Assembly (NCBI GenBank): GCA_018303105.1
Contig: JAGVYU010000052.1
Span: 1-39,290, forward strand
From: Candidatus Woesearchaeota archaeon
GTDB taxonomy: Archaea; Nanobdellota; Nanobdellia; Woesearchaeales; JAGVYU01
Direction: 5' to 3'
DNA length: 39,290 bases
Shown in pieces: positions 10,528 to 36,855 of the stretch. The position numbers and the translations under genes are program-made. Each line of letters opens with the position of its first letter. Position 1 is the first letter of the stretch. The notes beneath the pieces were generated by a model, which worked only from the letters and a program-made list of their open reading frames with translations, ran no database searches and was not told where the DNA came from.

Positions 10528-13500
10528 TTACGCTTGATTCAGGCGTTCAAAAAGCAGCGTGCATCGTTCTTTCACTGTTGCCCGTAGCTCTGGAGGTAAT
10601 TCCTTATACCATGTTTGAATCTCTTCATATTTCTCCCGCGCTTCATTCACATGGTTTTCTTGCACAAGCGCGAGCGCCGCATGCAGTCCTTCCTGAACCT
10701 TTGCGTGAATAATTTTGTGGTACGTCGCCTTTGTTTCCTGGATCACCTTCGGTTTTTTCGCCGCGGGAAGTTTTTTATATGCTTCCATAAGGTCCTGATA
10801 CGTCAGCATCGCATTATCCAGCTCATTGTTTGCAATAGCCACATGGATATCATGGATAATGTCATAGATTGCCTTTATCTCCTGACTGCGCATGATCAGC
10901 GCACGCTGCACCCCCTGCATAAGGTCAAACTCATAAAGCACATACGCCAGCAGGAGGATAACAATGATCGTGACTTCAAATGCAACAAGAGGATTGTCAA
11001 TGCTCGTGATCTTTGAAAAAATGGCGAGTCCCGTGATCGAGGCTCCTTTGCCGTCAACGGTTTGCGTGGGGAGCAACGCCAACGCTATGTTTTTCGCCTC
11101 ATCAGGATCAATCGTCGTGCGGGTGTAATACATGATATCCGTTGCCTCCGTGAGGTCAAACGCGATGAGGGGATCCGACTGAACGACAGTATAGGGTGTC
11201 AGGAATGTGATGTCCTTTGCATCCTCAGCGATCGTTTTGGGGATGTCGATAACAAGTTCTGTGTGCTGGACGTCTCCGAATGTCGATGCGACATGCTTAA
11301 CAAGCGTGATATCTGAGAGAGCGCCATCAAGCGTCGTGATCCGCCCAGACTGAACAACAGTTGAGATTGTCACGAGATTCTGGATCTCGTCCAAGCTGCT
11401 GAGATAACTTTTCGTGTCTTTAATATGCGCTTTTTCTTTGATGTACCGCTGAGCAATATCTTCAATTTGCTCGGGGCTCGCGTACTTCGCGAACTCCTCG
11501 GGGGATTCCGCGGTCACGGCCATGATTGTCTTCTTTCTGAGCTCATCAAGGCTCTCCTCGAGATCAGCAACGCGGTCATTATACGCCTCCTGATCAAGGC
11601 CTGCCCGATTTTGTTTGAGATTGAATAGATCTCGGTTAATCCGCGCCACGTTTTCTTTCGCCCGCTCCAGGCCTTCTCGGACTCTTAAAGTATCCGCAAG
11701 CTTGCGCTGATCGCTGCTGTAGCTATCGATACTTTCGAGCGCCGTGAGGAGCACGTCCTCGAGTTCAGAGTCCTCAAATTCTATTACGGGGGGAGTTCCT
11801 TCCTCAGTGTTCTGTGGCTCCTCGCTCTTTTCCTCCTCAAAAGGCTCTGCAACATCTTTGGTCAGGACCGCAGTATAGGTAGTCTCCTGATTCACAAGGA
11901 TCGTGCCATAAAACACATCATACCCATCTGCCCTGATGAGGAATTCGTATTCCCCAACAAAGAGCGTGTATGCCGCGTCCCCGTTTCCATCTGTTTTTAC
12001 TTCATCAACTCCGACATTAACTTTGGCGTTTTGTATTGCATTATCTGTGTCGCCGTCACGCACCTGAATCTTGACGGGAAACTTTTCCTTAACGGTAATC
12101 GTCACGGAGGCTGTCGCAGTATTCCCTTTGCCGTCTTTGACCGTAAGCTTGACGACATAATTCTTCAGATCAGGGAATGTATGGCTTACCGTTTTCTCCG
12201 TGGCTGAGGTTCCGTCATCGAAGTCCCAATTGTACGTCACATCGCCGAGTCCCCCTCCATGCGCTCCCGTGAATGCCACGCTGCCTCCTTTCTCGATCGT
12301 TTCCTTGTCAACAGTGATCGCCGCGGAGATGCTGCTCGTTACGGAATATGTGGTTGTTGTTTGTTTGATGGCTCCGTTGAAATTGAGGAATCCGTCAAGG
12401 ATGTACTGTCCACCATAGTCGTTGAAGTTTATAGTATCCAGCGTCGGATACGGGCCTTCAAAAAATCTGGTGATCGTCGTTTTCAGCGGTGTTGTGATGA
12501 TGAGCGTGACTTTGCTGCCCAACGGGGCTGTAACCCAATACACTCCGCCCTCTCCTAATGCGTACGAGAGTTTATTCGTTATGATGCTGAAATTTCGCTT
12601 CGTGTCAATATAGAACAGCTTCGATGCTGTGACATTTTGGTTTCCTGCTTTGTCAGCGCAGCCAACGTTCCATGTGTACGTTCCATTTTCGAGCTCGCTT
12701 AAGGATATCTGCTGGAGCGTGCCGCTGGGCGCGACAAGTCCCGTCATGTTGAGCACGTCGTTCAAATAGAGGCTGCACGTGAGCGACGCTGCATATACAT
12801 CCGTGGCTGTGTAGTTCAACGTCACAGAATCCCGGAGGCTGAGCTCTGGGTCAGGATTATGCAATTCAATCGCTGGCGGGCTCACATCAACAACGAAAGA
12901 CTGCGGCGCGGTGAGCGCAGATGGAGTGCCCTCGCCTGCGCACGCTACCTGCCAGTTGTGGATACCTTCATCTAACGTAAGGAGGGCAGTCGTCTGATTT
13001 GTTGCGGCGGGTATGCTCTCAAACTTGAGAGCGCTATCAACGGTGAGATTGCAGAGTACTTTCGTGTAGCTTGCGTTGTAATTAACCGTGAATCCAAAAG
13101 GGATTGGACTATCCTTAAAGTGACTGTTCGGCGCTGGCGACGTGGGGATGATACTGATTTCATGCTCAAATGGACTTGACGTCGCTGTCAGCGTGACGAC
13201 GATCACGAATTCCTGGCTGCTGAGGTGGGGGGTGATCCAGCTGATCTGGTCAACAAGGCCGTTGTGATTTGTATCATAAAATGTCACATTGAATGTCTCA
13301 TAATGTGTGACATCTACTTCCTCACCGTTCACGCGCCAGTAAAGCTGGATGTTTTCGGAAGCGCTTTCTTTTACGGTGGCGTAGCTCAAAACATTCGTAT
13401 ATTGAAACGCCCCTTCATATTCTGGATTGCTTGAGATCACGATCTCTTTTTCCCAGGATTCATCCGTGACGATGGGTTTGCTCTCGATTTTTTGTGCGGG

Positions 13501-14985
13501 ATCCGTCTCGAATGTAACCACATATTCTTTTTCCTCTCCCTCGTCCAGGGTATCCACAATGATGACGTCAGCGCCATCGGTTTCTGATTGTACGATCTCC
13601 TCTGTCTGCTTTTCCTGAACCCCTATCAGCTCAGCGGATTCTGGAATCGCAACCTGAACTTCAACGTCCAGGGGAGATGACTCCGTATTTTCTATCTTCA
13701 CGGTTTTTTGCCATTCTACAGGTTGCCCAATGACGATAGGATCATGGGTGAGCGCAGACCCAGAGAGAGTGTCTTGGGGAGGTGATTCTACTGGGATCTC
13801 TGCGGGGTGATCCGCTGCTTGCCCTTCTTCAGTCGTATCTTCCTCCGACACTGTTTCAGATTCTAGAGGGGGTGTTTGCTCAACAACATTTGATTGAATA
13901 TGGCCTACTGCTGGATCCGATGGATCCTCGCTGGGAAGAGTCTCTTCTTCATCACGCGCTGAGGATGCATGCTCTGAAACGGTGAATGACGTATCTGACT
14001 TGAGTATGATTCCTGAATAGAATATTGCTGCCCTGATCGTGTACGATCCTTCATCGAGCGTCTCGGGGATGGGCAGCGGGAAGTCTAAGGGATATCCTTT
14101 CTCGCGCGGGATTTTTATGTAGTGATCGAAGCCATTGTATGAAAAATACAGTTCAACATCAGCCTCAGCGGGGGCACTAATCGTCATCCAGACATCCTCT
14201 CCGGATGCATACTCTGGTTGCTTTGTTTGAATCCCAAATCGAGTTCCGGGATATTGGTTGAGCAGGATGTACTTCATGAGTTCGGGAGTGATTTCCATTA
14301 CAGAGCCCGGGATTTTTGGCTGCGGGATTGTCTGTGTTGTATTTTCTAATCCACAGCTGGGAATCGCTGCGTGCTTGCATGCGCTGTCGCTGCAGGAGTC
14401 TAACGTGCAGGGATCGCTATCATCACAGCTCATGGATACGCATGTGTCTGCGGGAGGCTCGGGAATGTCATCTGGTTCAGGCTCTGTGGGATCCGGCTCC
14501 TCTGGTGGATCCTGCGGCGTATCCTCGGGCTCGTCATCCGCTGGTTCCTCGGTATCCTCTGGCGGAGTCTCCGAATCAACGGGAGGCTCGTCCGGAGCTG
14601 TGTCTGTGTCATCTTCGGGGGGCGTTGCGTTCGTGTCGCCTTCTGTCGGCTCATCTGCAGGCGGTTCTGTGCTTCCTTCATCCGTTATATCCTCAGCTCC
14701 GTCTGTTGCCGTATCACTCTCTCCCGCTTCCTGTGATGCCTCAGGCGATGGGCTAGATTCATCTGTAGATGTTGTGTCCGATGTTTCAGAAGGACTGCTT
14801 GGCGATTCTGATGACTCTGATGCTCCCGCGTCTGATGACTCAGAAGCCTCTGATCCAGAAGACTCCGATCCTGAATCAGAGATTGGCGATGCTCCAGCAG
14901 CGTCGGATTGCGCGATGAGAAGCGGAGCTAGCAGGACAAGGCATACGAGCGCTGCTGCCATCCAAACATTATTCTTTTTTGCCAT
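10528..14985 (-). CDS. Giant cell-surface protein: signal peptide, acidic Ser/Pro/Glu stalk, Cys-rich motif, Ig-like/PKD and CarboxypepD_reg-like domains, coiled coil, TM, two cytoplasmic YKELP repeats
   Basis: Start taken at MAKKNNVWMAAALVCLVLLAPLLIAQ (ATG 14985). PKD-like YNWDFDDGTSATEKTVSHTFPDLKNYVVKLTVKDGKGN; TM segment VAFEVTIIVILLLAYVLYEF near the C-terminus. Confidence 0.85.
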   Translation of the reverse strand: MAKKNNVWMAAALVCLVLLAPLLIAQSDAAGASPISDSGSESSGSEASESSDAGASESSESPSSPSETSDTTSTDESSPSPEASQEAGESDTATDGAEDITDEGSTEPPADEPTEGDTNATPPEDDTDTAPDEPPVDSETPPEDTEEPADDEPEDTPQDPPEEPDPTEPEPDDIPEPPADTCVSMSCDDSDPCTLDSCSDSACKHAAIPSCGLENTTQTIPQPKIPGSVMEITPELMKYILLNQYPGTRFGIQTKQPEYASGEDVWMTISAPAEADVELYFSYNGFDHYIKIPREKGYPLDFPLPIPETLDEGSYTIRAAIFYSGIILKSDTSFTVSEHASSARDEEETLPSEDPSDPAVGHIQSNVVEQTPPLESETVSEEDTTEEGQAADHPAEIPVESPPQDTLSGSALTHDPIVIGQPVEWQKTVKIENTESSPLDVEVQVAIPESAELIGVQEKQTEEIVQSETDGADVIIVDTLDEGEEKEYVVTFETDPAQKIESKPIVTDESWEKEIVISSNPEYEGAFQYTNVLSYATVKESASENIQLYWRVNGEEVDVTHYETFNVTFYDTNHNGLVDQISWITPHLSSQEFVIVVTLTATSSPFEHEISIIPTSPAPNSHFKDSPIPFGFTVNYNASYTKVLCNLTVDSALKFESIPAATNQTTALLTLDEGIHNWQVACAGEGTPSALTAPQSFVVDVSPPAIELHNPDPELSLRDSVTLNYTATDVYAASLTCSLYLNDVLNMTGLVAPSGTLQQISLSELENGTYTWNVGCADKAGNQNVTASKLFYIDTKRNFSIITNKLSYALGEGGVYWVTAPLGSKVTLIITTPLKTTITRFFEGPYPTLDTINFNDYGGQYILDGFLNFNGAIKQTTTTYSVTSSISAAITVDKETIEKGGSVAFTGAHGGGLGDVTYNWDFDDGTSATEKTVSHTFPDLKNYVVKLTVKDGKGNTATASVTITVKEKFPVKIQVRDGDTDNAIQNAKVNVGVDEVKTDGNGDAAYTLFVGEYEFLIRADGYDVFYGTILVNQETTYTAVLTKDVAEPFEEEKSEEPQNTEEGTPPVIEFEDSELEDVLLTALESIDSYSSDQRKLADTLRVREGLERAKENVARINRDLFNLKQNRAGLDQEAYNDRVADLEESLDELRKKTIMAVTAESPEEFAKYASPEQIEDIAQRYIKEKAHIKDTKSYLSSLDEIQNLVTISTVVQSGRITTLDGALSDITLVKHVASTFGDVQHTELVIDIPKTIAEDAKDITFLTPYTVVQSDPLIAFDLTEATDIMYYTRTTIDPDEAKNIALALLPTQTVDGKGASITGLAIFSKITSIDNPLVAFEVTIIVILLLAYVLYEFDLMQGVQRALIMRSQEIKAIYDIIHDIHVAIANNELDNAMLTYQDLMEAYKKLPAAKKPKVIQETKATYHKIIHAKVQEGLHAALALVQENHVNEAREKYEEIQTWYKELPPELRATVKERCTLLFERLNQA

Positions 14986-15235
14986 GAGTGATGTTGTCCC
15001 GTATTTTTTCAAGCTCTTTGATGAGTTCTTCCTGCTTTCGCTGGTTGAGATTTTCTGAGATTTCTTTTCGAAGATGCTGAAGATGAAATGCGAACGGATC
15101 CCTGTGCTTCATCCATTCGTCGCGGACAATGCTGCGCACGGCCTCGCTAATGTCAAGGTAATGGTCCTCTTTTGCGGCATCCCTTAGCTCCTTAATCATG
15201 CGTGCGGGAATCCGAACAGAAATCATGTTAGCCAT
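14969..15235 (-). CDS. Ribbon-helix-helix (CopG/RHH) protein with helical C-terminal extension
   Basis: MANMISVRIPARMIKELRDAAKEDHYLDISEAVRSIVRDEW; overlaps the start of the giant surface gene. Confidence 0.75.
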   Translation of the reverse strand: MANMISVRIPARMIKELRDAAKEDHYLDISEAVRSIVRDEWMKHRDPFAFHLQHLRKEISENLNQRKQEELIKELEKIRDNITHGKKE

Positions 15236-15691: not shown

Positions 15692-16504
15692 TTATTGAAG
15701 TTCAACATAGAAGTAATATGTAATTGGCGTAACATCCCCCTCATGACCGTTTTCTCCCACAATCATTTCAAAGTCCCAGCGCTGCGTGTCATATCCGATA
15801 ACGCTCTGGTTAATGATTGCGGTGTAAATCACGCCATCATTCGAAGCGCCGGTTCCATCATGGTAGAGAATCACTTCCTGGAATGTGCCCTGCCCCGTGC
15901 TATTGTAAAGTCTCGTGATCGGGCAGCTTGGCCCCAGGGAGCCATTGATGAGCTGCGAGCCAACATAAAAACTTGCATGCATTCCTAATCCCGGGGCCGT
16001 AAACGTCTCATTAACCCCATCAGGATCATCCGCAAGCGCTCCGATTCCACCGTACACATTTGGGGCTCCGTCACCCGCTGCCGGATTTGTCTCAAGTTCC
16101 ACAAGTTGTAAATAGGATGCAACGGTATGTGTCCAGTTCCAGCACTGCACATTGCCAAGGCTCCAATCAACAGTCTGCAAATATGTTGCGTATATCTCGC
16201 CCTCGGGATCTGCGGCCTGCCAGTCATACAGCGTATTATTTCTGCTGTCATCGAGCGTGATCGTTCCCGTGATGTTTCCGACAAAGCCCTGCCAGCTTTG
16301 CGTGACCGTATTTGCTGCAATATTGAGGTGTGTCACATTTCCAGCTGTCGCCTGCAGTGATGACGATGGTGCGGGTGTTCTTCTCGAGGAGTTGACGACG
16401 GTGAGCGTCTGGGGACCTTCAGGAGTTGTCGTCGCCAAAACAAAGGGAATGGAGAGTATGCTAAGTATCAAGACCAGGATAATAAGGGCGTGAACTCGTT
16501 TCAT
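15692..16504 (-). CDS. Secreted surface protein, type A
   Basis: Signal peptide, many N-x-S/T sequons, TVTQSWQGFVGNITGTITLDD ... YYFYVELQ; close paralog of 22894-23712. Confidence 0.82.
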   Translation of the reverse strand: MKRVHALIILVLILSILSIPFVLATTTPEGPQTLTVVNSSRRTPAPSSSLQATAGNVTHLNIAANTVTQSWQGFVGNITGTITLDDSRNNTLYDWQAADPEGEIYATYLQTVDWSLGNVQCWNWTHTVASYLQLVELETNPAAGDGAPNVYGGIGALADDPDGVNETFTAPGLGMHASFYVGSQLINGSLGPSCPITRLYNSTGQGTFQEVILYHDGTGASNDGVIYTAIINQSVIGYDTQRWDFEMIVGENGHEGDVTPITYYFYVELQ

Positions 16505-17221
16505 TTAGATCAGCTCGATGTAAAAATAATAGGGAGTTGACGGTTGAGATCCCTGAAGGGCGTTCTCTGCCACGATCATTTGGAAGTCATACGTCTGGTT
16601 GTTGAAGCCATACGTTGCGTTTTCCAGCAGCGACGTGTAAATGAGATTCCCCCGATCCGAGAGCAGAATCTCCTGGAAATAATTGGACTGCTGCGTGTTG
16701 TTGACATTGAGTGCAGTTGCCCTGCACGTGTTTGCGGCGATTTGCGTTATGCCGATATAGAATCCGCGATGCGTCGTTCCGCTGAACGTGGTATTGATGC
16801 TGTCGACATCCGTCGTCGTGATATTCAGCGCCTCCTGCTCTGCCGCGATCACGGAATTGTTTGCGCATTGCACGGCGCTCCATGTAATCAGCGTCGAGTT
16901 CCTAGTCGCATAGAGCTCCCCCGTGATCGTCTGCACGTTCCATGTTACAAGCCGGTTTAGGGCGCTGTCAAGGAGCGCGAGCTCTCCTGTCACATTTCCC
17001 ACAAAACCTTTCCATCGGTAATTCTGGGTCGTCGCGTTGATATCGAGCGTGAGGATGCTTCCTCCCGTTGAGTTCATCACCGCTCCCGGGCTGGGAGTTG
17101 TCGTCATAGTTGAAACATTCTGTATTGCCGTGGGAGCGCTCGGATCAGATTGCGCGACAATAATGCCTCCTAGGAGAATTAACATCAAGATCCAAAGTCC
17201 ATTGATGAGCACTTGCTTCAT
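16505..17221 (-). CDS. Secreted surface protein, type B
   Basis: Signal peptide; YRWKGFVGNVTGELALLDS ... YDFQMIVAEN ... YYFYIELI; paralog of 21994-22890. ATGA overlap with the upstream HTH gene. Confidence 0.82.
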   Translation of the reverse strand: MKQVLINGLWILMLILLGGIIVAQSDPSAPTAIQNVSTMTTTPSPGAVMNSTGGSILTLDINATTQNYRWKGFVGNVTGELALLDSALNRLVTWNVQTITGELYATRNSTLITWSAVQCANNSVIAAEQEALNITTTDVDSINTTFSGTTHRGFYIGITQIAANTCRATALNVNNTQQSNYFQEILLSDRGNLIYTSLLENATYGFNNQTYDFQMIVAENALQGSQPSTPYYFYIELI

Positions 17222-17697
17222 GGCCGTTTTGCTTTTCCCCGCTTGTATATCGTCCAGATCGTCCTGTCATCACGGTTGAGCAGCCGCGCGATATCGCAGT
17301 ATCGCATGCGCTGAACTTCTTTCAGGAAACGCACGAGACATTCCAGGATGCTGAGCGTGTCAGACTGAAAAACGGGAAGAGGAATGCGCAAGCCGTCATG
17401 TATCTTGAGAGGAGTGAGGAGTTTATTCCGCGCGTTGCGGTACGTGACCCCGATCGGATCGCGATTTCGCTTGAGATGCTGGGCGATGCGCGCATACGTC
17501 ATCCCATGCTCTTCTCGGAGGTATACAACAAGCGCCTCGAGCGGTCCAAGGGTGTGCTGGGAGAAAATGCATATGGGAATAGCGAGAGAACGCTCTTCGA
17601 TCAGGCGCACGGCCTCGTGAGGAGGCATATGATGCGAGCGTTCAAGCTCGCTCAGCACCTGCTCGAGGCGTTTCAACAGCATTGCACGTGACGTCAC
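17218..17697 (-). CDS. Tandem-HTH regulator (cassette 1)
   Basis: Two copies of the module IP..F....L..LE.LV.(Y/F)L.E...M.Y..IA..L.R......TY; second copy YCDIARLLNRDDRTIWTIYKRGK. GTG start. Confidence 0.75.
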   Translation of the reverse strand: MTSRAMLLKRLEQVLSELERSHHMPPHEAVRLIEERSLAIPICIFSQHTLGPLEALVVYLREEHGMTYARIAQHLKRNRDPIGVTYRNARNKLLTPLKIHDGLRIPLPVFQSDTLSILECLVRFLKEVQRMRYCDIARLLNRDDRTIWTIYKRGKAKRP

Positions 17698-17707
17698 TAT
17701 AGTTATC

Positions 17708-17759
17708 TTGTAAGTGTTTTTATATATAAATATACCGCCTAATAGATATTATGTAAGTA
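17708..17759 (-). promoter_or_regulatory. Candidate regulator operator, cassette 1
   Basis: On the minus strand, TTTACTTACATAAT and ACACTTACAAGAT flank the TATA region TTTATATATAAA; repeat units 43 bp apart. Confidence 0.45.
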
Positions 17760-17814
17760 AACATGAGGAAAGGGCGCCGCACAGTTTAAATACGGGCGCA
17801 AGCCAGAGAGTGAT

Positions 17815-18225
17815 ATGAAAAAAGAGACGATTCAGAATGTCATTGTTGTTGTGGTTGTTGTGCTCTGCATTCACATCTTTCTTCTCAGTTCGGGCATTCT
17901 CGAGAAGTCTGTTGGTTTTGTCGTGAAAAAAGAAGCGCCTCTGAGAGTGGAATCCGCGCGCGTAAGCCAGAAAACAGTCTCCGAGCCGTTGAACGTGCGA
18001 GAGAACTCATTTTCAAAAAATTTCCGCACGGGCATGTTTGTCCTGAATCTCACGAATGTGGACACGCTTCCAGGAAAAGTCACTGCCACAGTCTCCTGCC
18101 CGGGATTCAGCGCGAACCAGACAAAATCCGCGCAGCCCGGCGAACACTTCATTTTTGAGTTTGAAGAGCCGCCGTGCGATCCTGAACATACGTTTATTTC
18201 AGAATTAGTGACGAGAGAGAAATAA
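17815..18225 (+). CDS. Membrane-anchored hypothetical protein
   Basis: 136 aa; N-terminal TM NVIVVVVVVLCIHIFLLSSGIL. Confidence 0.6.
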   Translation: MKKETIQNVIVVVVVVLCIHIFLLSSGILEKSVGFVVKKEAPLRVESARVSQKTVSEPLNVRENSFSKNFRTGMFVLNLTNVDTLPGKVTATVSCPGFSANQTKSAQPGEHFIFEFEEPPCDPEHTFISELVTREK

Positions 18226-18253
18226 TTGGGCTGGACGCAATGCCGGTTCTCAG

Positions 18254-19918
18254 TCAGGAATGATGTTTCTTCTTCCTCTTTCTCCTCCACAGGATCAGGA
18301 AGATTAAGAGGAGTATGATGATGATCGGCAAGTAGATGAGCACATCAAATGTGGAGATGATGAGATCGAACTCCCCTTCGAGGATCTTTACGAGAGCGTT
18401 TTCCCGCTGTCCATAATATGCCCGTACTTTAATGCGGGGATTGCTGTCAAAGTCTTCTTCCGCGAGATCCGCGGGTACAACCGAATTCTTCTTCGCCCCT
18501 GGACTGATTTTAATGACTTCCTTCGCCGCGAACGTCTGGCGCTCTCCCGCAACCAGGACATCATGGAGTTCTGTGTCCACATACACGTCCAGGGCTCCGA
18601 TGTTTTCAACCGAAATAAGGAAAGATCCTCTGCTTTTCTGATATACGACTTTCTCGATGCTGATCGCGGTATCATCAAGCACTTCCACGCGCTTCACGGC
18701 GATTTCCCCTTGCAGCGTGCGCTCCAGTGCATCTTTTGACTCACCGAAGATAACGAATACCCGCGCAATGATCTCGTCTCCTGAGATAGGATCAACGTCA
18801 TAAACGACCGTCTTCGTATCGCTACCGTCAATAAAGACGGGCTCCGTATCGCCGACGGTCTGCTGCTGGTCCCCGCTGATGACCGTGTATGTTCCCTTAA
18901 AGTACGTCGCGATTTCGACATTGTTCTTGAACGTGACTTCCAGCTGATTCGTGAGGGAATTGTACGTGATTCCTTCAATGCTTAGGCTGAGGTCAATGCT
19001 CGGGAGCCGAAAGATGTCAAGCCCTTCAACCTGGGCAATCGGGCCCTCTGACTGGCGGGCGCTTCTCGCAAATTTCACGAACGTGCTAATCCCTGTATCC
19101 CTCCTCACCGTCGTTGCTGTGCCTACAAGCTCATTGCCGATGAGGACTCCTACCTGGATATTGCTGTTGACAATGTAATCATGAATCTTAGGGGGAACAT
19201 TTTGGATTCCGATAAAAAGCACGGGAAATTGCCCGGACATGAGCTCTTGCTCGATGAATTCGCCGTTCGTGAGGATGACCTGCTGCGTTGGGCTGATCTC
19301 CATGAATTTTTTTACGATTTCAACATTGTTCGCGAAGCGATCCCCATCCATATTGATAATTTCAGGATTAAATGACGCGAGCCTGTCCTTGACCTCCCGA
19401 TCGACATGGCCATAAATGAGTACTATCCCGGGGTTGCGGCTCTCCAAGAAATTCTCCACTTCTCCGATGTTGTTGCGGTCAGCGAAGAGTACAAACGACT
19501 TGCTTGCGATGGCGTAGGGAGCTACGGCAATCGAATTGTATCCATACGAATCATCAATGATGATGTAATTGTTGATGTCGGAAAGCATTTCCGCAAGCTC
19601 AAGACTTAAGGAATTGAACTCAAGCTCATCAACAGTATATCCCTTGCCCGTGAGAAGCGAACCATAACCAACGACAAACGGGTTTTTGCGCGAGTTCAAC
19701 ACGGTCAAGGGCTGTTCCACAGGTAAATCACTAAGAATAATGGTCGAATGTTGTTCGCTTACGAGAAATTTTGGCTGCACGCCCGTGTGAAAACCATACT
19801 GCATCCCTGAATAGACATCTTTCCAGTCACGTGAGTTAATGAGAATATTATCGGCGCACACTGCAGGCAGCGCTAATGCGAGCAGCACTGCAATAATAAG
19901 GAATCCTCGGAATCTCAT
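18254..19918 (-). CDS. Secreted/TM surface protein with cell-wall-binding-repeat-2-like N-terminal domain
   Basis: Signal peptide; YIIIDDSYGYNSIAVAPYAIASKSFVLFADRNNIGEVENFLESRNPGIVLIYGHVD resembles CWB2-like domains. C-terminal TM followed by RRKRKKKHHS. Confidence 0.7.
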   Translation of the reverse strand: MRFRGFLIIAVLLALALPAVCADNILINSRDWKDVYSGMQYGFHTGVQPKFLVSEQHSTIILSDLPVEQPLTVLNSRKNPFVVGYGSLLTGKGYTVDELEFNSLSLELAEMLSDINNYIIIDDSYGYNSIAVAPYAIASKSFVLFADRNNIGEVENFLESRNPGIVLIYGHVDREVKDRLASFNPEIINMDGDRFANNVEIVKKFMEISPTQQVILTNGEFIEQELMSGQFPVLFIGIQNVPPKIHDYIVNSNIQVGVLIGNELVGTATTVRRDTGISTFVKFARSARQSEGPIAQVEGLDIFRLPSIDLSLSIEGITYNSLTNQLEVTFKNNVEIATYFKGTYTVISGDQQQTVGDTEPVFIDGSDTKTVVYDVDPISGDEIIARVFVIFGESKDALERTLQGEIAVKRVEVLDDTAISIEKVVYQKSRGSFLISVENIGALDVYVDTELHDVLVAGERQTFAAKEVIKISPGAKKNSVVPADLAEEDFDSNPRIKVRAYYGQRENALVKILEGEFDLIISTFDVLIYLPIIIILLLIFLILWRRKRKKKHHS

Positions 19919-19977
19919 CCCACACCGTATATGAGCAATGTGGTGGGATTTTTAAACATAGTGATAAACAGGGTCAA

Positions 19978-20448
19978 TTACGTCAGAATTTGAACGGCAC
20001 AGAGTTTGTGGACATCCTGAACAATGTGGATCCAGCGCCTCCGTTCTTCAGAGAGATGCATGGCAACGAAGAAAAATTTCTTAGACCGCTTGTCGTAAAC
20101 AAAATACTCAGGAACTCCTCCCATCGTGCGTGAGATCCGCACGAGCTTCTTGTACGCTCCCCTTCGGACAAGACTTCGGATCGTCGCAAGGCGCTCCGTA
20201 TTCTCTCGCAGCATCTGTTCATGAAACGGGATGCTTTCAATCACATGCTCCTGAAAATGACGCTCATTATTATCCGCTCCGGGCCGGGCTTTAAAGAATA
20301 AACGGGGTTTCTTTGCATGCTTCTTTAACGTTTTGAGATGCTGTCTGTGCCATTTGACTTCATACGGCAAATCAACATTAAAATAAGGACCCGCTGAAAA
20401 GACCCTATAGTCGGGAGTGCGAAATGCGTCAAGGCTTTTGGGATGCAT
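19978..20448 (-). CDS. Degenerate VRR-NUC-like protein
   Basis: GGVPEYFVYDKRSKKFFFVAMHLSEERRRWIHIVQ resembles the VRR-NUC PD...ExK core, but the ExK position reads AMH. Confidence 0.5.
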   Translation of the reverse strand: MHPKSLDAFRTPDYRVFSAGPYFNVDLPYEVKWHRQHLKTLKKHAKKPRLFFKARPGADNNERHFQEHVIESIPFHEQMLRENTERLATIRSLVRRGAYKKLVRISRTMGGVPEYFVYDKRSKKFFFVAMHLSEERRRWIHIVQDVHKLCAVQILT

Positions 20449-20487
20449 GAGAGAATGCAGGCATTGAGGTTATATAAAGATTTCCGA

Positions 20488-20838
20488 TTACGTCGCTTTC
20501 GGTGGCTCTTTAACTTTCTTGAAACGCTCGATTGTTCTGGCAAGGATGAACGCGAGGAGGGCAAGAGGAATCAGGACAAGCGGCGTGTAGACAAACCGCT
20601 TCGCCCATGCGGTGGATGATTGCTGGCACTCGCTCGGGCATGAGAACGCAAAGACTTGCGTTGGCGAGGAGAGCGTTGTTGTATTCGAGCACGTGAGCAC
20701 TGCAGAACACACCGTTGTTGTGCTACTGAGATACATTGCTTTGTGGTTCCAGAGGATGAGGAGAGCTCCAAGCATAAAACAGATCATAAACCACTTTCGG
20801 CGATACGCTTTTCGCTCAAAATACTCGTTCCAGTTCAT
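20488..20838 (-). CDS. Two-TM hypothetical membrane protein
   Basis: 116 aa; two hydrophobic segments flanking a Ser/Thr/Cys-rich loop. ATGA-type overlap with the upstream gene. Confidence 0.6.
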   Translation of the reverse strand: MNWNEYFERKAYRRKWFMICFMLGALLILWNHKAMYLSSTTTVCSAVLTCSNTTTLSSPTQVFAFSCPSECQQSSTAWAKRFVYTPLVLIPLALLAFILARTIERFKKVKEPPKAT

Positions 20839-21959
20839 GGTTTCTTCCTGCGTTTGGCACGTTGAAGGAGTGAATCTACAAGCGCTTTCTTTTTGATCCG
20901 ATGATAACGTCGCAGGACAATTGCCGCAAGCACGGCCGCGATCACAAGCAATCCAACCTGTACGGCTCGTTCTGTGTGGACGAGACAGCTGTGATGTTCT
21001 GCCTTCCTCAGGAAACCGCAGTCAAGGCTCTGGCATGTGAAGTTGAGGAGCGCCTCATGATCGGCGCAGTCAAGTGGCGTGCAGATATGATTCACGATTC
21101 CCTCGCCTGGATCGCAGTGGAGAGGCACGCAGGAGTGGTTGAGATAGCCTTCATTAAACGCGCAGTCGAGAGTCTGGCATGTGAAGTTAGAGATGTATTC
21201 ATTATATGAGCATAATGCTTCAACACACTGAAAATCGGATAGAATCTCCCCTTGATTGCATGGGATTTCTGCACATCCGTGATTAACGATGAATGTGGCA
21301 TTGCCACTGCAGGAAATCGGAGTGCATGCGTGTTCGACGCATGTTTCATCGCCCCCGCAATCTGTATCCGAGCAGCAGGCATAATCGATGCACACATGGT
21401 TTTCAGCGTATTGGCATGGTGAGCAGCCCAGCTCCTGGCACTCATGCTCCGAGCATTGCTGTTCTATAGGACAGTCTTCATTGCGGGTGCAGCCGAACAT
21501 TTCTATCGTATAGTTAGCGGGATAACAGTATTCGCTTTCGGGCCCTTTAAGAGCCCAATATTCCAGCGGTCTCCGGGTTGTCAGGCAGAGGAGGTAGTTT
21601 AAACCAGCAGGGCTGTTGCGGAGGGGTAATATTCCCTGGAGGCCAAGGCTGACTTGCTGCCCTTTAGCTATGGAAAGCGCCAAGGTCCTGTTTGATCCAG
21701 ATGCGTTGGGATCATTAGAGGTGAGCTCAAGCTTATCGGACTCAGCCAGCACAATCCTTCTCACAGCATCGAGGAATTTAACCTGAAGGACGACAAGATC
21801 ACTATCCCCTTGATTTCCAATCGTGACGTTCCATGCAACCGTGCGGTTATGAACACATTCATCTGGGCATGTATATGTGATATTGTAGAAAGCGAGCGTA
21901 GAGGGTATGAAGAACGCGATACAGACGATGAGAACGATAATGCTGCGCATGGGACTCAA
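20835..21959 (-). CDS. Cys-repeat cell-surface protein with C-terminal TM
   Basis: Signal peptide, CARDB-like N-terminal region, then repeats xxxExxxNxxCxxLxC with exact 16-aa spacing; TM AVQVGLLVIAAVLAAIVL. Confidence 0.78.
   Translation of the reverse strand: MSPMRSIIVLIVCIAFFIPSTLAFYNITYTCPDECVHNRTVAWNVTIGNQGDSDLVVLQVKFLDAVRRIVLAESDKLELTSNDPNASGSNRTLALSIAKGQQVSLGLQGILPLRNSPAGLNYLLCLTTRRPLEYWALKGPESEYCYPANYTIEMFGCTRNEDCPIEQQCSEHECQELGCSPCQYAENHVCIDYACCSDTDCGGDETCVEHACTPISCSGNATFIVNHGCAEIPCNQGEILSDFQCVEALCSYNEYISNFTCQTLDCAFNEGYLNHSCVPLHCDPGEGIVNHICTPLDCADHEALLNFTCQSLDCGFLRKAEHHSCLVHTERAVQVGLLVIAAVLAAIVLRRYHRIKKKALVDSLLQRAKRRKKP
20972..21308 (-). repeat. Protein-level tandem repeat, 16-aa (48-bp) period, about 6-7 units
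   Basis: Cys at residues 229, 245, 261, 277, 293, 309, 325 and 234, 250, 266, 282, 298, 314, by counting the given translation. Confidence 0.8.
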
Positions 21960-21993
21960 TCAGTTAAAATAAAAAAAAGAAAAAAGAAAAAAT

Positions 21994-22890
21994 TTAGATC
22001 AGCTCAACATAGAAGTAAAATGCTATGTTGCTCTGCGCTCCTGACAGTCCGGACTGTGGCAGCAACGTCTGGAAATCATATGTTGCTCCATTGTAGCCGA
22101 CGGTATCATTTTCGAGGAGGGATACGTACACAATATCGTACGCGTTGCTGTTCCCTGCCGCGTTTTCGAGTTGCTCCGTTCCATCCGTTGCCATGATCTC
22201 ATACCATCTTGCTGTCTGATCCGCGTTATTCTGGTTCAGGTTGATGCCGAAGCATGTTCCCGTCTGCCCAAGTCCAATGATGGAATCGGTCACTTGCCGC
22301 TCACCAGCATAGAATCCTGGATTCGCGAAGCCACTACCATTGATGAACGTTCGCACCAACGCGTCTTCCTGTGCCGTGTTTGCTGATCCAGCTGTGGACA
22401 CGTTCGTAAAGCTGTGGTTGAAGTACGCGCTTTCCTTCCTCACAAGCTCCCAGCCTGCGCAGGAGAGGTTTGACCAGATCGGAATGCCTCCTGCATACGG
22501 ATTCGTTACTTCTGTCGTTCCTGCCGTGATGAACGCGCCTTCCTTCGTGGCATACAGCTCACCTGTGATCGTCGCGATGGACCAATCATACAGTGCATTT
22601 CCGCTCGCATCCTGAAGGGCATACTCACCATTCACGTTACCAACATAGCCGACCCATTTTTGCGTTGGGGCAGACTCGTTGAGCTCTACCGTATAGATAT
22701 AGCCTCTCGTTCCGTTCAAGGCTGTAGCGTTGGGGTATAATGCCGTGGTGTTGCTTTGGATGTTCAGCGTTGAGGGTGCTGATGGCTGTGTTGATGCTTG
22801 GGCGTACACTACTGCTGCTGCAAGAGTCATCATGAGGAGCAGTAAGGTAATGTGAGCCATTCGTTGTGGGTTAGTAGTTTTCATTTTCAC
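21994..22890 (-). CDS. Secreted surface protein, type B
   Basis: Signal peptide; QKWVGYVGNVNGEYALQDASGNALYDW ... YDFQTLLPQ ... FYFYVELI. Confidence 0.82.
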   Translation of the reverse strand: MKMKTTNPQRMAHITLLLLMMTLAAAVVYAQASTQPSAPSTLNIQSNTTALYPNATALNGTRGYIYTVELNESAPTQKWVGYVGNVNGEYALQDASGNALYDWSIATITGELYATKEGAFITAGTTEVTNPYAGGIPIWSNLSCAGWELVRKESAYFNHSFTNVSTAGSANTAQEDALVRTFINGSGFANPGFYAGERQVTDSIIGLGQTGTCFGINLNQNNADQTARWYEIMATDGTEQLENAAGNSNAYDIVYVSLLENDTVGYNGATYDFQTLLPQSGLSGAQSNIAFYFYVELI

Positions 22891-22893
22891 ACC

Positions 22894-23712
22894 TCACTGG
22901 AGCTCCACATAAAAGTAGTACGTCGTTACCGCTACATTACCATTGTGGCCATCTTCTCCAACGATCATCTCAAAGTCATGTTTTGCAGCGTCATATCCTG
23001 TCGCGCTCTGGTTGAGGATGGATGTGTATATCACTCCATCGTTGTTTGCACCCGTACCGTCAGTGTACAAGAGGACTTCTTGGAATGCTCCTCCTCCAAC
23101 ATTATTGTACAACCTTGTTACGGGGCATGCGGAATCCGTTGCATTTACAGTGATTGCCTGAGGTCCGGCGAAGAAGTTCGAATGCGCTCCTGCGCCCGGT
23201 GCCGAGAACGTTTCATTAACGCCGTCCACGTCATCAATTGCTGCTCCAATGCCGCCATAAACGCTTGGTGCTCCGTCGCCTGCAGCTGGATTCGTTTCCA
23301 GTTCAGCGAGTTGCAAGTAGGATGCTGTTGCAATCGTCCAGTTCCAGCATAATACACTGCCCGCAGTCCAGTTGACTTGTGAAAGATACGTTGCGTAAAT
23401 TTCACCTTCGGGATCGGCTAATGACCAATCGTAGAGTGTGTTGTTGTTCGCATCATCTAATGTGATCGTACCTGTGATGTTTCCGACAAAGCCTTGCCAG
23501 CTTTGGGTCACGGTTTGACCTTGCACAATTAAGTGCGTTATGTTGCCTGCGGTCGCCTGCGTTGTTAAGGCAGAGCCTGCCAGTCTTCTGCTGCTATTGA
23601 CAACCGTTAAGGTCCCTGGACCTTCAGGCTGCGTCACAGCGAGAACGATGGCAGTCGCGCTTATTAAAAATAGCAACGGCAGGACAATCCTGATCTTTGC
23701 GCGCATATCCAT
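22894..23712 (-). CDS. Secreted surface protein, type A
   Basis: Shares long near-identical blocks with 15692-16504: TVTQSWQGFVGNITGTITLDD, NNTLYDW, ADPEGEIYATYL, YYFYVELQ. Confidence 0.82.
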   Translation of the reverse strand: MDMRAKIRIVLPLLFLISATAIVLAVTQPEGPGTLTVVNSSRRLAGSALTTQATAGNITHLIVQGQTVTQSWQGFVGNITGTITLDDANNNTLYDWSLADPEGEIYATYLSQVNWTAGSVLCWNWTIATASYLQLAELETNPAAGDGAPSVYGGIGAAIDDVDGVNETFSAPGAGAHSNFFAGPQAITVNATDSACPVTRLYNNVGGGAFQEVLLYTDGTGANNDGVIYTSILNQSATGYDAAKHDFEMIVGEDGHNGNVAVTTYYFYVELQ

Positions 23713-23715
23713 TGT

Positions 23716-23943
23716 TTAAACACCTCTTTCTCTTTCTTTGTGATTGTCCTTGATTTTGGACATTTTTTCTATATTCTTTGCATTGATAATAATCGTTCCA
23801 AGTTTTCCTGTTACTTTGACGAAGCCATCATTGACTTCCTCAAGTCGTCCCCGGGCAATTTTGAGTTGGCTCCCGTCCCGGTAAGGGGCTTTAACAAATT
23901 CTCCTATGAAGTCAGAGAAAGGCGTTTCAGATTTCGTCGTCAT
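23716..23943 (-). CDS. Small Sm-like/beta-barrel protein
   Basis: 75 aa; FIGEFVKAPYRDGSQLKIARGRLEEVNDGFVKVTGKLGTIIINAKNIEKM resembles Sm-like folds. Confidence 0.5.
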   Translation of the reverse strand: MTTKSETPFSDFIGEFVKAPYRDGSQLKIARGRLEEVNDGFVKVTGKLGTIIINAKNIEKMSKIKDNHKERERGV

Positions 23944-24701: not shown

Positions 24702-26312
24702 TTATCGAATCTCCGCGTAAATAGCGACCGTTGCTTCTGACGTGTCTGACGTGAGCGAATATCTTCGCAGATTCGCCGGAAAGCTGATCTCGTAATCATA
24801 CGTGCCATACTGGCCTTGCTTTTGCGGATTCACTTTTGCGATAAACACTACATCTTCCTTGTCCGTGGCGTCGAACTGCACATCATTGTCATCGCTCGAA
24901 TCCCATAATATCCCGGTGATAAAATTCGCGCTTGTCGAGCTATTGACGTACGAAACATTGCCCAGGGTGTTTCCAAAAATAATGAATGCTGTGAGGTGTC
25001 GTGACTGTCCATTCACCATGTATGTACTGTTAATATTCTGGCTTACATTCGTCATATTGAGCAAAACATCCAGTTCTGCGAAGTCATTCGCGACAAACGA
25101 TCCATTGCCCGGATATCGTCCAAGCGGCTTCAGGCTGTCGAAATTGATGGATGCATCGCTGTCCGCAACGAACACGTTGCTTCGGTTTGTGTTCGTGACT
25201 GCCCAGTTAACGAGTGTCGTTCCCAGCGCATCCTGAAGCGCAAGCCTTCCTGAGATATTGCCCACAATTTTCTGATACGGGCTTACAGTCACCGTTTGGT
25301 ATGCGTAATTGTTCGTCTCAATCGATTCCGCAATGGAGCCTCCGGAAGCTATGGGGGGATCCACGATGACATAGATATCCGTAGCTCCAAGAACAGCAAG
25401 CCACGTCTGTGAAAGGTTCACATTGCTCCCTGCTGCTATGTTGGCTGTTTGATTAGCTCCAATCTGGATATTGAGGCTGTAGTTTCCCTGGAAAAATTGG
25501 ATACCTACACTGTTCGCATCCACCGTGCCGATATTATGGACGGTTACATTTATTGTAACATTCTGGCCCTCTAAGGGTGTCGCGTTGCTCACAACAATGT
25601 CCGTCGACTGAATACGTAAATCGGGCATGGGCACCGTGTTATTGAATTGGACCGTTATCCGGGTTGTATTCCTCGCTCCTTTCGTCGTATTAGCGCTCAC
25701 ATACAAAAAGTACGTCCCATCCGCAAATTTAGAGCTATTAAAGGTATCATTGTAATCATGTGAAGTGAGCGCAGCATCCTTCGAGTAATTGCCAGATGAA
25801 TTGCCAATAAAATAAATCGCTTTATCAACAAAAAAACCCGTGAGGTTCGTGATTGTGGCGTTCACAACGCTGAGATTCTGGATTACGGACGCGTTTCCCG
25901 GAGCATTGATCACAACGGAAGGTGAAGCATTATACGTAAGCTCCATATTCGGAGCAGCGTCAACGCCTTCAGTTCCCCGCAAGAGGGCTACAGGCCCTGC
26001 AAGGTAATTCGAACCATTATTAAGCACCTGAACAGTCAAATTATCTGATGCGGCGCAGGCGGGGGAGAGCGCCTCGCAGTCGAGAACATAGTAATTGCCT
26101 TCATCGTTGTATACTCCTCCCGGCCCAATAATATCCGTAATCTGGTTTGAGGGCCCATCAGCGGTGCGATACAGCATGACCGTGAAGCCATTCGCGTCCT
26201 GGCCATCCGTGGCGTTCTCAACAAATCCTACGATAAAGTACGCCGCGTTTGCGTTGAATGATCCCCAGATTACAAAAAGCGCCAACAGCAGTAATATAAG
26301 AGGATACTTCAT
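24702..26312 (-). CDS. Modular secreted surface protein (CARDB-like and GFVGN-type modules)
   Basis: Signal peptide; PDLRIQSTDIVVSNATPLEGQNVTINVTVHNIGTVDAN (CARDB-like); C-terminal IVGNISGRLALQDALGTTLVNWAV resembles the type A/B core. Confidence 0.8.
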   Translation of the reverse strand: MKYPLILLLLALFVIWGSFNANAAYFIVGFVENATDGQDANGFTVMLYRTADGPSNQITDIIGPGGVYNDEGNYYVLDCEALSPACAASDNLTVQVLNNGSNYLAGPVALLRGTEGVDAAPNMELTYNASPSVVINAPGNASVIQNLSVVNATITNLTGFFVDKAIYFIGNSSGNYSKDAALTSHDYNDTFNSSKFADGTYFLYVSANTTKGARNTTRITVQFNNTVPMPDLRIQSTDIVVSNATPLEGQNVTINVTVHNIGTVDANSVGIQFFQGNYSLNIQIGANQTANIAAGSNVNLSQTWLAVLGATDIYVIVDPPIASGGSIAESIETNNYAYQTVTVSPYQKIVGNISGRLALQDALGTTLVNWAVTNTNRSNVFVADSDASINFDSLKPLGRYPGNGSFVANDFAELDVLLNMTNVSQNINSTYMVNGQSRHLTAFIIFGNTLGNVSYVNSSTSANFITGILWDSSDDNDVQFDATDKEDVVFIAKVNPQKQGQYGTYDYEISFPANLRRYSLTSDTSEATVAIYAEIR

Positions 26313-28194: not shown

Positions 28195-31114
28195 TCGTGT
28201 TCACCCACACCTCATATCCCTTCGATGCATCTGCTGCAAAGTTTTTGCCAATAAAAATGTTTCCTACAAAACGTATATATCCTTGTGCGATCTGGTTTTG
28301 ACTGTCCCAGATGCTGATCGTATTCAGAGAGGATCCAATATTTAATGCAATATCTCGTGCGGTTGTATATGTTGAGTTCGGCTTGATGCTGATCCAGTTT
28401 CTCGATCCTGATGCCTTTTTCACGAGCTGAACTTGCGTTCCCGGATAGATTTCTCCAGTCAGTGTGAGGTTTATGGCCGTTGCTCCAGATCCGTTGATCG
28501 TGACTTCATACATTTTTCCCGCCTGAAGCGCGAAGTTGCACGTCGTATCTGTGCACGTTGTTGGGCACGTCGCGTGATTGCACGTGACCGCTTGCTGCGC
28601 TGCGGCATCCCAGTATGAGACCGAAGTAATGCCCTGCTGCTCCAAAATATCCGCTGCCCTGAGATACGTGCTTGAATTTAGGGGTACAGATATCCAATTC
28701 TTTGTAGTCGAGCTCGTTTTTCTCTGGAGCGGAACCTGCCAGAATCCTACCGTATTGCTCTCGACAAGCCCAAGGGATGTGTTCGCAACGATCTTGTAAA
28801 ACCGTTTCTGGTATTGATCGAGCACATTTTCCGAATACATTGAAGTGTTACTCGTATTCGTTATGGTAAAGGCTCCGGTGGGTGTTGTTGCCATGTAAAC
28901 CGTGTAGTTGCTCGCGTTGGATACACTCGCCCAGCTGATGTTGAGGAGCACATTGCTCTGCGGCGTGATGTTTAAGAGCCGGATGTTTGTGTTATTCACC
29001 GTGAGATTCCAGCTGAAGCTGCTGCTGCCTTCGAGGTCAGACGCTACAAGTGTGATGTTATAACTGCCGGATTGGCTGTAATTGCCGAGCCAGAGCGTGG
29101 AGTTTTGATTATCACTGCTCAACATCCTGCTGCCGTTCTGATACCACACAAGGGAAGCGTCTCGTTCACGGTCATCTACGCTGACGTTGAGATACTGGTT
29201 CAGTGGTTCGGCAATCGTGAATGTTGCCCCGCCTGAGAGATTCGTGACAAACGATCCATTCGTGTGGGGATAGATCATCGTGATATTGGGTGCGAGGTTC
29301 GCATTTATGGTCAATGAAGCATTAGTTTCCGTTGTATTGGTTGAGATGTCACTAAACTTGACGCCGCACGTCCACTCATCCGAGATATTCGTAACCGTAT
29401 GATTTAATCCCGTAATGTTCGTCACTGCGCCACTTGATACAGATGTTGAGCCGCTGGAGTAGAGGATGCTGTTGTTATACCATCTCCAATACGCGGTGAG
29501 CGTTGTCGTGTCATCATCACTCACAGAGCCGTAACACGTAAGATTCGCGTGCGTTGTATTATAAGGATAGTCTGTAGTGTTGAGCGTGACTGAAACAGGA
29601 GTGGGCGCAGCGTTTGTTGTCATGAAGCACCACTGATCCGTCTGGTTCGAGCGTCCAGCGGTGTCATTTGCCGCGAATTTCCAACACACGGTTGAGCCGC
29701 CTTCAACACCAATAGTTTTCGTGATGGAGTGCACGCATGTTCCTGCGCCGTTGCAGCTCAGTGCCGTGTCATTCTGCACAGCTCCTGCTGCTGTGCCGTT
29801 CCAGGCGAATACGGATACATTCACCCCGCTTGCATCCGCCCACGTGACGTTAAACTGTACTGCCCGGTTTTTAAGCACGACTGTGGCATTGCTTGCGTTC
29901 AGGCTCCATGCGGGTGGCTTTGTATCAGAGACGTTAATCGTAATGTTGTTGCTCCTCGTCGTATTGATGCTGTCATTGGCCGTGAAGACGACCGTGTCAT
30001 TCCCCGTAAATCCAATTGGAGGTATCAATGTTGCAATGCCTGTGGCGTTATTTGTGTGCACAGTGACGTTTTGGTTCCCAAGACCGCTGAATGTGAGCAC
30101 ATCATCATCGCGGTCATAGAAATAATCGTTGAGATCTATAAGCGTCGTGTTCTCATTCATCTCGATCGAGACGTTGCGGATCTCCTGCGTGATATTGAGG
30201 GCTCCCAACTTTATAGACCCTTGGCTTGTCGTGTTGACAATGATGTCAACGAGGCATGCAAGGCCAGTGCTATGGCAGCCTGCGCACGTGCAATCAGGAA
30301 CTGCATTCCTCAGTACAAGGCTGAAGTTCGCAAACGTCTGCGTCGTATTGAGCATGCCCGGATAGCTCCATTCAACGCTGTTGTCGTTCCCGATGTCAAT
30401 CGTAATACCTTGCGGATACGTTCCATTGTAGATCTCTCCAGCAACAGTCATGGACGCATTTTGGACATTCACGGCCTTCGATACTCTGATAGCGGGGACC
30501 GCGCTGCCATTAACAATTTCATACACGCTGAATCCCGGAACGTCAAAGACAACATCATTCGCGCTGTAGCTGATGACCGTGCAGTTCACGCAGTTCGCTC
30601 CGTCCTTGAGGATGCGCACGTTCGAGTACTGCACTCCCCTGATGGTAATGCGCGCAGGACTGTTGAGCTCGGGGATCATTGTCTGATTAAGCTGCACGCG
30701 GCGCGCACTGATATTGACTTCGCTGTCCAGATTCAATGTCGCAACATGACTGAGATCGATCGCACTCGTGAAGTCAATCATGCCGTGCGTGTTGTTGATC
30801 ACAACGCTTGCCGCGCTCCACACGGGCTCGGTTGTGAACCACTTCAGCTTTGAGAGATTTCTCGTGTCTATAATCCTCAGCGGTATTAGGCTTGGGGTAA
30901 TGTCACTGATCGTATTTTGTTCTTCAAGAACTTGTGGCTGTGTTCCATGCCGAACGCTCGATGTAAACTGGATTCCTGTTTCGTTCAGGGTTCTCAGCGT
31001 TCCCTGATCAAGATTGAATCCTAAACTGACATTGCTTTCGTTTCTGAACGCCGCGAACGCGAGAGGCACGGCTACGAGGATCATCAACGTGAGGACGAAT
31101 AGTTTCTTATTCAT
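28172..31114 (-). CDS. Large secreted surface protein (Ig-like/cadherin-like modules)
   Basis: 980 aa; signal peptide; very sequon-rich; tandem C-terminal NWISVPLN/NWISIKPN modules. ATGA overlap with the upstream HTH gene. Confidence 0.82.
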   Translation of the reverse strand: MNKKLFVLTLMILVAVPLAFAAFRNESNVSLGFNLDQGTLRTLNETGIQFTSSVRHGTQPQVLEEQNTISDITPSLIPLRIIDTRNLSKLKWFTTEPVWSAASVVINNTHGMIDFTSAIDLSHVATLNLDSEVNISARRVQLNQTMIPELNSPARITIRGVQYSNVRILKDGANCVNCTVISYSANDVVFDVPGFSVYEIVNGSAVPAIRVSKAVNVQNASMTVAGEIYNGTYPQGITIDIGNDNSVEWSYPGMLNTTQTFANFSLVLRNAVPDCTCAGCHSTGLACLVDIIVNTTSQGSIKLGALNITQEIRNVSIEMNENTTLIDLNDYFYDRDDDVLTFSGLGNQNVTVHTNNATGIATLIPPIGFTGNDTVVFTANDSINTTRSNNITINVSDTKPPAWSLNASNATVVLKNRAVQFNVTWADASGVNVSVFAWNGTAAGAVQNDTALSCNGAGTCVHSITKTIGVEGGSTVCWKFAANDTAGRSNQTDQWCFMTTNAAPTPVSVTLNTTDYPYNTTHANLTCYGSVSDDDTTTLTAYWRWYNNSILYSSGSTSVSSGAVTNITGLNHTVTNISDEWTCGVKFSDISTNTTETNASLTINANLAPNITMIYPHTNGSFVTNLSGGATFTIAEPLNQYLNVSVDDRERDASLVWYQNGSRMLSSDNQNSTLWLGNYSQSGSYNITLVASDLEGSSSFSWNLTVNNTNIRLLNITPQSNVLLNISWASVSNASNYTVYMATTPTGAFTITNTSNTSMYSENVLDQYQKRFYKIVANTSLGLVESNTVGFWQVPLQRKTSSTTKNWISVPLNSSTYLRAADILEQQGITSVSYWDAAAQQAVTCNHATCPTTCTDTTCNFALQAGKMYEVTINGSGATAINLTLTGEIYPGTQVQLVKKASGSRNWISIKPNSTYTTARDIALNIGSSLNTISIWDSQNQIAQGYIRFVGNIFIGKNFAADASKGYEVWVNTNATWTQN

Positions 31115-31569
31115 CGTTTCCTCCTCGCGCGGTCATACGCCGTCCATATCGTGCGTTCATCTCTGTTCATGAGGTGTGCAATGTCGACGAATCGTAAATT
31201 CATTTCATCATGCAGATAGAAGACGACAAGCTCGAGAATGCTGCGCGTGCGGGAGCGCAGCTTTGTCATAGGAATTGAGTATGGGGAAGCGCGCGGCGAG
31301 CGAAAACGGCGCTTTCCATTTTGGTACGCCGTCCACACTGCGGGTATTTGTTTCTCAAGCTTTTTTGCAATCGCGGTGAACGAAAGGTTGTGGTGATCAT
31401 GCGTATACACGACAACTGCTTCTAGTGGGCTTAAATTGCGAAAAACACCGACGGGAACGAGCACTTCATGGTGCAAGAGAACGAGCGTGCGGTCTACGCT
31501 AACCTGATGCCGTGCTGCGTACTGCTCAATCCGCGCGCGCAGCGCTTCAAGTTCCTTTGATTTATACAT
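31111..31569 (-). CDS. Tandem-HTH regulator (cassette 2)
   Basis: Two modules: LSPLEAVVVYTHDHHNLSFTAIAKKLEKQIPAVWTAYQNGKRR and RSILELVVFYLHDEMNLRFVDIAHLMNRDERTIWTAYDRARRK. Confidence 0.78.
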   Translation of the reverse strand: MYKSKELEALRARIEQYAARHQVSVDRTLVLLHHEVLVPVGVFRNLSPLEAVVVYTHDHHNLSFTAIAKKLEKQIPAVWTAYQNGKRRFRSPRASPYSIPMTKLRSRTRSILELVVFYLHDEMNLRFVDIAHLMNRDERTIWTAYDRARRKR

Positions 31570-36360: not shown

Positions 36361-36855
36361 TTGAAACTAGGGAACGCGGCGAGGAAACACGAAACAGCAA
36401 CCCCTCAACTAGATACCGTGCTCGCTGCGTTTCTCAAGCACCTTCGGGAGCAGCATAACCTTTCTGACGAACAAATAAATACGCTATTTGAGCAAAAAAC
36501 TTCCATTCCAGTCTCTGCATTCTCATCGCTCCTCAGCACGCTTGAAACCGTTGTGAAGTATCTCAAGGAAAACAAGCGTTTGAGAAATGGCGAAATCGCC
36601 ACGCTCCTCAATAGAGATCCAAGAACAATCTGGGCAACTTATCACAACGCCCTTAAAAAATTTCCTTCTTCACTGATTGTCGCGCAAACGCCTTACCATA
36701 TTCCTGCCGACGTTTTTCGTGACCGTAGCAAGTCCACATTGGAAGCGGCCATCATGCATCTCATAGTACATTACAAGCTTAGCCTGCACGAAATAGCCGT
36801 GCTGCTTAAGCGTGATGACAGCACCATTTGGATCACCGCGCACAGGAAAAAATGA
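36361..36855 (+). CDS. Tandem-HTH regulator (cassette 3)
   Basis: Two modules: STLETVVKYLKENKRLRNGEIATLLNRDPRTIWATYHNALKK and STLEAAIMHLIVHYKLSLHEIAVLLKRDDSTIWITAHRKK. TTG start. Confidence 0.78.
   Translation: MKLGNAARKHETATPQLDTVLAAFLKHLREQHNLSDEQINTLFEQKTSIPVSAFSSLLSTLETVVKYLKENKRLRNGEIATLLNRDPRTIWATYHNALKKFPSSLIVAQTPYHIPADVFRDRSKSTLEAAIMHLIVHYKLSLHEIAVLLKRDDSTIWITAHRKK

Follow-up and report, generated by a model that had tools for sequence, protein, structure and literature searches.

The window, i.e., the whole stretch of 39,290 nucleotides that was analysed, comes from a tiny, uncultured archaeon, Candidatus Woesearchaeota archaeon (assembly GCA_018303105.1, contig JAGVYU010000052.1). 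Cultivated DPANN archaea rely on contact with other cells, and many DPANN surface proteins are unnamed. The window holds two loci with one gene each of two types, A and B (Table 1). In the direction of transcription, locus 1 consists of a tandem helix-turn-helix (HTH) gene, B1 and A1, while locus 2 consists of a small conserved gene, A2 and B2. All four A/B reading frames that an earlier note had claimed from the sequence are present on the minus strand, and the gene order that it gave is confirmed. Its matching of A1 to A2 and of B1 to B2 is likewise confirmed, and the motifs that it had quoted occur in the proteins. Its label of an Sm-like protein for the small gene upstream of A2 does not appear apt, given that no Sm or LSM match was obtained in Pfam or PDB, even with a five-member alignment.

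Table 1. Positions of the A/B genes and their neighbours in the window
Feature	Position	Strand	Description
PKD protein	10528..15012	-	large surface protein containing PKD (Pfam)
88-aa gene	14969..15235	-	small gene between A1 and the PKD protein; position conserved, matches in L026, L027, L088, L090
A1	15692..16504	-	270 aa; type A protein, predicted to be exported, locus 1; AlphaFold2 pLDDT 87
B1	16505..17221	-	238 aa; type B protein, locus 1; closest to the B-alpha subfamily
Tandem HTH gene	17218..17697	-	4-base ATGA overlap of its stop with the B1 start; two stretches match Pfam Sigma70_r4_2 (3.5e-8)
Putative membrane anchor	18254..19918	-	554 aa; hydrophobic N- and C-terminal segments, basic tail (alignment)
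B2	21994..22890	-	298 aa; type B protein, locus 2; B-beta subfamily
A2	22894..23712	-	272 aa; type A protein, locus 2
Small conserved protein	23716..23943	-	75 aa; upstream of A2; 67-70% identical in L025, L030, L031, L087
Protein C	24702..26312	-	536 aa; CARDB (Pfam 1e-9); A/B-type domain at residues 339-535
Tandem HTH gene	31111..31569	-	overlaps the 5' end of the gene for a secreted-looking protein (980 aa; 28172-31114)
Tandem HTH gene	36361..36855	+	overlaps the D start by 4 bases
Protein D	36828..39290	+	A/B-type domain at residues 48-236, then CarboxypepD_reg repeats (Pfam); truncated by the contig end

The domain shared by A, B, C and D

The four proteins are homologous. Codon-aligned identities are 67% for A1/A2, 43% for B1/B2, 37% for A1/B1 and 31% for A2/B2, and A and B are 27-37% identical overall. 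With A1 as the query in its own genome, A2 (E 1.6e-119), B1 (2.8e-26) and B2 (5.1e-20) were recovered at values far beyond chance. An iterated profile found two more copies of the domain in the window, one in the C-terminal part of protein C and one in the N-terminal part of protein D; this placement, last in C and first in D, is invariable. Two cysteines and a C-terminal end of the YYFYVEL type are conserved throughout the family. Sequons occur at 3-4 per 100 residues family-wide, about 2.4 times the shuffled expectation, whereas four presumed cytosolic proteins of the window have no such excess.

Searches with A and B gave no Pfam or NCBIfam match above the curated cut-off, no S_layer_N or S_layer_C domain of Pfam was found in them, and the profile had no sequence match in PDB. 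As a test for type IV pilins, we searched for a loose class III signal-peptide pattern, which occurs in only 13 short family members. The AlphaFold2 model of A1, made with 42 family members, has a pTM of 0.82 and consists of a helix at residues 2-17 followed mostly by strands that form a single beta-rich domain. The hydrophobic nature of this N-terminal helix suggests that A1 is exported. Foldseek returned no match of the model in PDB (best E 1.8, probability ≤0.06 among the matches listed) or in BFVD (best E 0.24). To probe the contact between A and B, we also folded the A2-B2 read-through, which is a single frame under translation table 4, as one chain. This model is poor (pLDDT 60, pTM 0.43) because few alignment rows covered the A half; its B half has the same strand order as A.

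The two genes of each locus share a reading frame on the minus strand. At locus 2, B2 is in the frame of A2 (A2-TGA-GGT-GTG of B2), and at locus 1, A1 is in the frame of B1 (B1-TAA-ATG of A1), such that read-through at either locus would yield one chain. This sharing of frames is probably due to chance. In relatives, A/B-type domains also occur inside very long ORFs of 6826 aa (G006:C12:30523-30879), 3968 aa (G044:C6:33399-33899) and 3141 aa (G021:C24:73915-74409).

Ancestry of the two loci

A tree of 123 domains separates A from B, with many genomes represented in each group; judged by this tree, A and B are two old classes. A groups with A. The opposite outcome, A grouping with the B protein of its own locus, which the earlier note had named as refuting its proposal, was not found. 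Nevertheless, that proposal, in which the A-B pair was duplicated or rearranged as a unit, is not borne out: forcing B1 and B2 to be sisters costs 96 log-likelihood units and is rejected (AU test, p = 2e-39). B1 and B2 fall in different subfamilies, B-alpha, to which B1 is nearest, and B-beta, to which B2 belongs. Both subfamilies are present, with one copy each, in L030, L031 and L087. In L025, L030, L031, L044, L077, L087 and L092, an A gene is followed by a B-beta gene, and it is with these B-beta genes that B2 groups; B1 is near the B-alpha genes, each of which has an HTH gene before it. In a tree of B proteins only, the split of B1 from B-beta is more certain than the exact position that B1 takes between B-alpha and the remaining B genes.

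A1 and A2 are sisters (support 94/80). Placing A1 with those A genes of relatives that have a like position, a group that was named after the first tree had been seen, is rejected (p = 7e-4). The two genes have a nucleotide identity of 63%, with saturated synonymous sites, and no conversion tract is visible between them; a recent copy is rejected on these grounds. The copying or homogenisation is therefore old. The two A genes of another genome, G122, are also sisters within that genome, and therefore homogenisation or replacement occurred at least twice.

The normal gene order is A then B, seen in 29 adjacent pairs, as against one case of B then A, which is that of the window. The earlier note had regarded A and B as partners, and the retention of their adjacency in many genomes is consistent with their working together. 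Five relatives (G015, G122, G134, G180 and G094) have an A-B-beta pair and also a separate, HTH-led A gene, and therefore both loci predate the lineage of the window. In the sampled stretch, the HTH-led A gene adjoins the PKD protein and D in 4 of these 5 genomes; synteny of the PKD protein with locus-1 A and D is seen in L026/L076, L086, L088 and L090. In relatives, one HTH gene belongs to B-alpha and another to locus-1 A, and in L026 and L027 the anchor gene separates B-alpha from the HTH-led A gene. The contact between B and A at locus 1, and with it their order, therefore looks like a secondary juxtaposition.

We propose that an old split of A from B, an old split of B-alpha from B-beta and a lineage-specific copy or homogenisation of A beside a B-alpha type gene would underlie the two loci. 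The A-B pair would then not have been copied as a unit in the lineage of the window. A unit duplication within this lineage, with one copy reshuffled to B-A, would account for the presence of one A and one B at each locus and for the sister relationship of A1 and A2. However, the cost of joining B1 to B2 and the existence of relatives in which B-alpha and B-beta coexist and the two loci are apart make it extremely improbable. A very old unit duplication may have taken place, followed by homogenisation of A. As to A1 itself, we see about an even chance that it was inherited vertically as the A gene of locus 1 and had its sequence replaced by that of A2 in gene conversion, as opposed to having arisen as a fresh copy. 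Its neighbourhood, with a B-alpha type gene on one side and the 88-aa gene and PKD protein on the other, resembles that of L026, L088 and L090, and the A genes of G122 provide a parallel; however, the degree of divergence and the lack of a visible tract mean that any such conversion would have been an old event.

Partner genes and distribution of the family

Homologues of the putative anchor adjoin A/B genes in DPANN archaea and in Methanoperedens, and there is usually one match per genome. Among the 288 genomes of the window's own order, 97 have both the anchor and the A/B family, 11 have A/B only, 4 have the anchor only and 176 have neither. Certain taxonomic families (e.g., f4, f9, f27 and f31) mix fully positive genomes with genomes that have neither. 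Therefore, while the co-occurrence is partly due to shared ancestry, ancestry alone is insufficient to explain it. Protein C is located near A-B in relatives. In Methanoperedens (L040, L112-L120), we observed a compact cassette that comprises C, one short A-like protein, an anchor homologue and usually D; tandem-HTH genes are absent from these cassettes. Downstream of B2, the window encodes a cysteine-rich protein with a C-terminal hydrophobic segment (20835-21959), relatives of which are found near A/B loci in L025, L027/L043 and L085. A small plus-strand ORF (9337-9780) resembles part of the PKD protein (E 4e-4), perhaps its C-terminal helical region.

Tandem-HTH genes have a strict placement before surface genes. 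In the window's own genome, a search that was not biased to family loci found 5 such genes, and all 5 are directly upstream of B1 or of a gene encoding a large secreted-looking protein; in most cases the two genes share the 4 bases ATGA. Besides the three copies of Table 1, the 5 comprise those at G000:C7:6293-6733 and G000:C66:18840-19199. The HTH-led 980-aa protein of the window appears, as judged by eye, to have a paralogue on contig C66 (L102:5209-7788, 859 aa), which is also HTH-led. In related loci, we counted 33 distinct tandem-HTH ORFs that are followed by another gene, in a sample that is biased towards A/B family loci; the gene behind them belongs to the A/B/D family in 30 cases and encodes another secreted-looking protein in 3. 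The overlap with the next start takes the form ATGA or TGATG for 23 of these 33 ORFs and is 8 or 11 bases long for 7 others. We infer that the HTH genes regulate the surface genes that follow them, with similarity to sigma-factor region 4 as the only hint, and their placement points to an unstudied class of regulator.

The A/B family was found in 108 of the 288 genomes of the order (42-row alignment, E 1e-6 or better), with 1-9 matches per genome. In a sample of the phylum, 82 of 371 genomes carry it, all of them listed as belonging to the same order or class as the window. Relatives that carry the family are named as Woesearchaeota, Pacearchaeota, Nanoarchaeota and one Methanoperedens. The contig of Methanoperedens is not attributable to misbinning, since 11 of 34 Methanoperedenaceae genomes carry the family; a wider sample of the phylum of Methanoperedens has it in 3 of 247 genomes, G473 itself counted. 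A viral origin was rejected, in that no viral contig encodes a relative and BFVD holds no matching fold. In literature searched for the family, for its hosts and for comparable surface systems, titles and abstracts contained no prior description of the family, although an earlier description is possible.

In sum, Methanoperedens and about a third of the genomes of one DPANN order share a family that is absent from Pfam and PDB and that comes with a fixed group of partners. Its presence in both raises the testable question of whether surface machinery was transferred between archaea.

Possible roles of A and B, and known systems

Based on sequence comparisons and gene neighbourhoods, A and B probably form part of a structure at the cell surface that is as yet undescribed. 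We propose that both would be exported and probably N-glycosylated, each subunit contributing a single domain to an accessory assembly, i.e., a filament or a coat. The domain would be used in three ways, namely alone in A and B, as the C-terminus of the adhesin-like C and as the N-terminus of the long D. That C ends and D begins with this domain suggests, by inference, the logic of end proteins: A and B would make up the assembly, and C and D would be inserted in it or cap it. The 18254-19918 protein would be the membrane anchor of this assembly. The observations that lead us to favour a surface assembly include the fixed A-then-B order (29 versus 1), the co-occurrence with the anchor, the Methanoperedens cassette, the placement of the domain in C and D, the excess of sequons, and the conserved cysteine pair and C-terminal motif. 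Against it, 11 of the 108 genomes with A/B have no detected anchor. Taken jointly, with an accessory filament or coat apart from the S-layer, C and D plugging or capping it, a dedicated anchor and no unit duplication, this account seems to us about equally likely to be right or wrong.

It is important to consider what else A and B might be. The earlier note had suggested subunits of a surface layer or filament, and a two-component S-layer lattice would suit a conserved, multi-copy pair of proteins that appear to be exported and are rich in sequons. However, the surface-layer part of that suggestion is weakened by an S_layer_C match in an 881-aa frame on another contig of the same genome. S_layer_C proteins occur in 55 of 60 relatives, with or without A/B (S_layer_N was found in 0 of the 60 genomes searched), while A/B are present in only 108 of 288 genomes. 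Because S_layer_C proteins are separate both in the window's genome and in these relatives, A and B are more likely accessory, and we consider it improbable that they form the S-layer itself. Less remote, though still unlikely, is that A and B act individually, without a polymer, as secreted adhesins or ligands that vary between copies. The range of copy numbers, the variable gene order at each locus and the CARDB, PKD and Ig-like domains of neighbouring proteins all speak for such a role, but it fits poorly with the fixed order of A before B, with the link to one nearly single-copy anchor family and with the fusion of the same domain at opposite ends of C and D.

We return to the accessory assembly as our preferred reading. 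A broader version of it holds that the A/B subunits, the C and D ends and the anchor together make a filament or coat of a class new to archaeal surfaces, with a fold not seen before, distributed over DPANN and Methanoperedens, possibly by transfer, with the HTH regulators added in DPANN. We advance this version tentatively and regard it as somewhat doubtful. In any case, a short list of genes is now available to express, image and test.

Similarities to known systems are partial. In the anchor family, a weak similarity to CWB2 (PF04122) was seen in 5 of 15 members (best E 0.0013). However, the window's member has no CWB2 match, and the family differs in having a C-terminal hydrophobic segment and, in 7 of the 15 members, a zinc-ribbon tail. 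Methanococcales-type S-layer proteins (S_layer_C, PF05124) are, like the predicted state of A and B, exported archaeal surface proteins, but A and B do not match this domain, which is encoded by separate genes. The donor-strand fibres of TasA in Bacillus biofilms also combine an exported beta-rich subunit with an accessory partner; with neither a fold match nor a sequence match, they serve as a model of assembly only. According to its model, the fold of A is unmatched among solved structures, including threads, TasA-like fibres, S-layer domains and pilins.

The nearest functional analogue is the thread of Sulfolobus acidocaldarius. The thread is described as an exported (Sec/SPI-type signal), glycosylated, beta-rich, donor-strand filament, and its subunit, Saci_0406, has a putative cap, Saci_0405, encoded next door (PMC9715654). 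To that extent, threads and A/B proteins in their predicted form are alike in being archaeal, exported, glycosylated and beta-rich, with the gene of a putative partner adjoining. However, the lineages are different, there is no sequence match and A1 has no Foldseek match to the thread; because the fold is not shared by this test, we do not file A and B as threads. A further difference from the thread is that A and B are homologous to each other, and that C and D share their domain.
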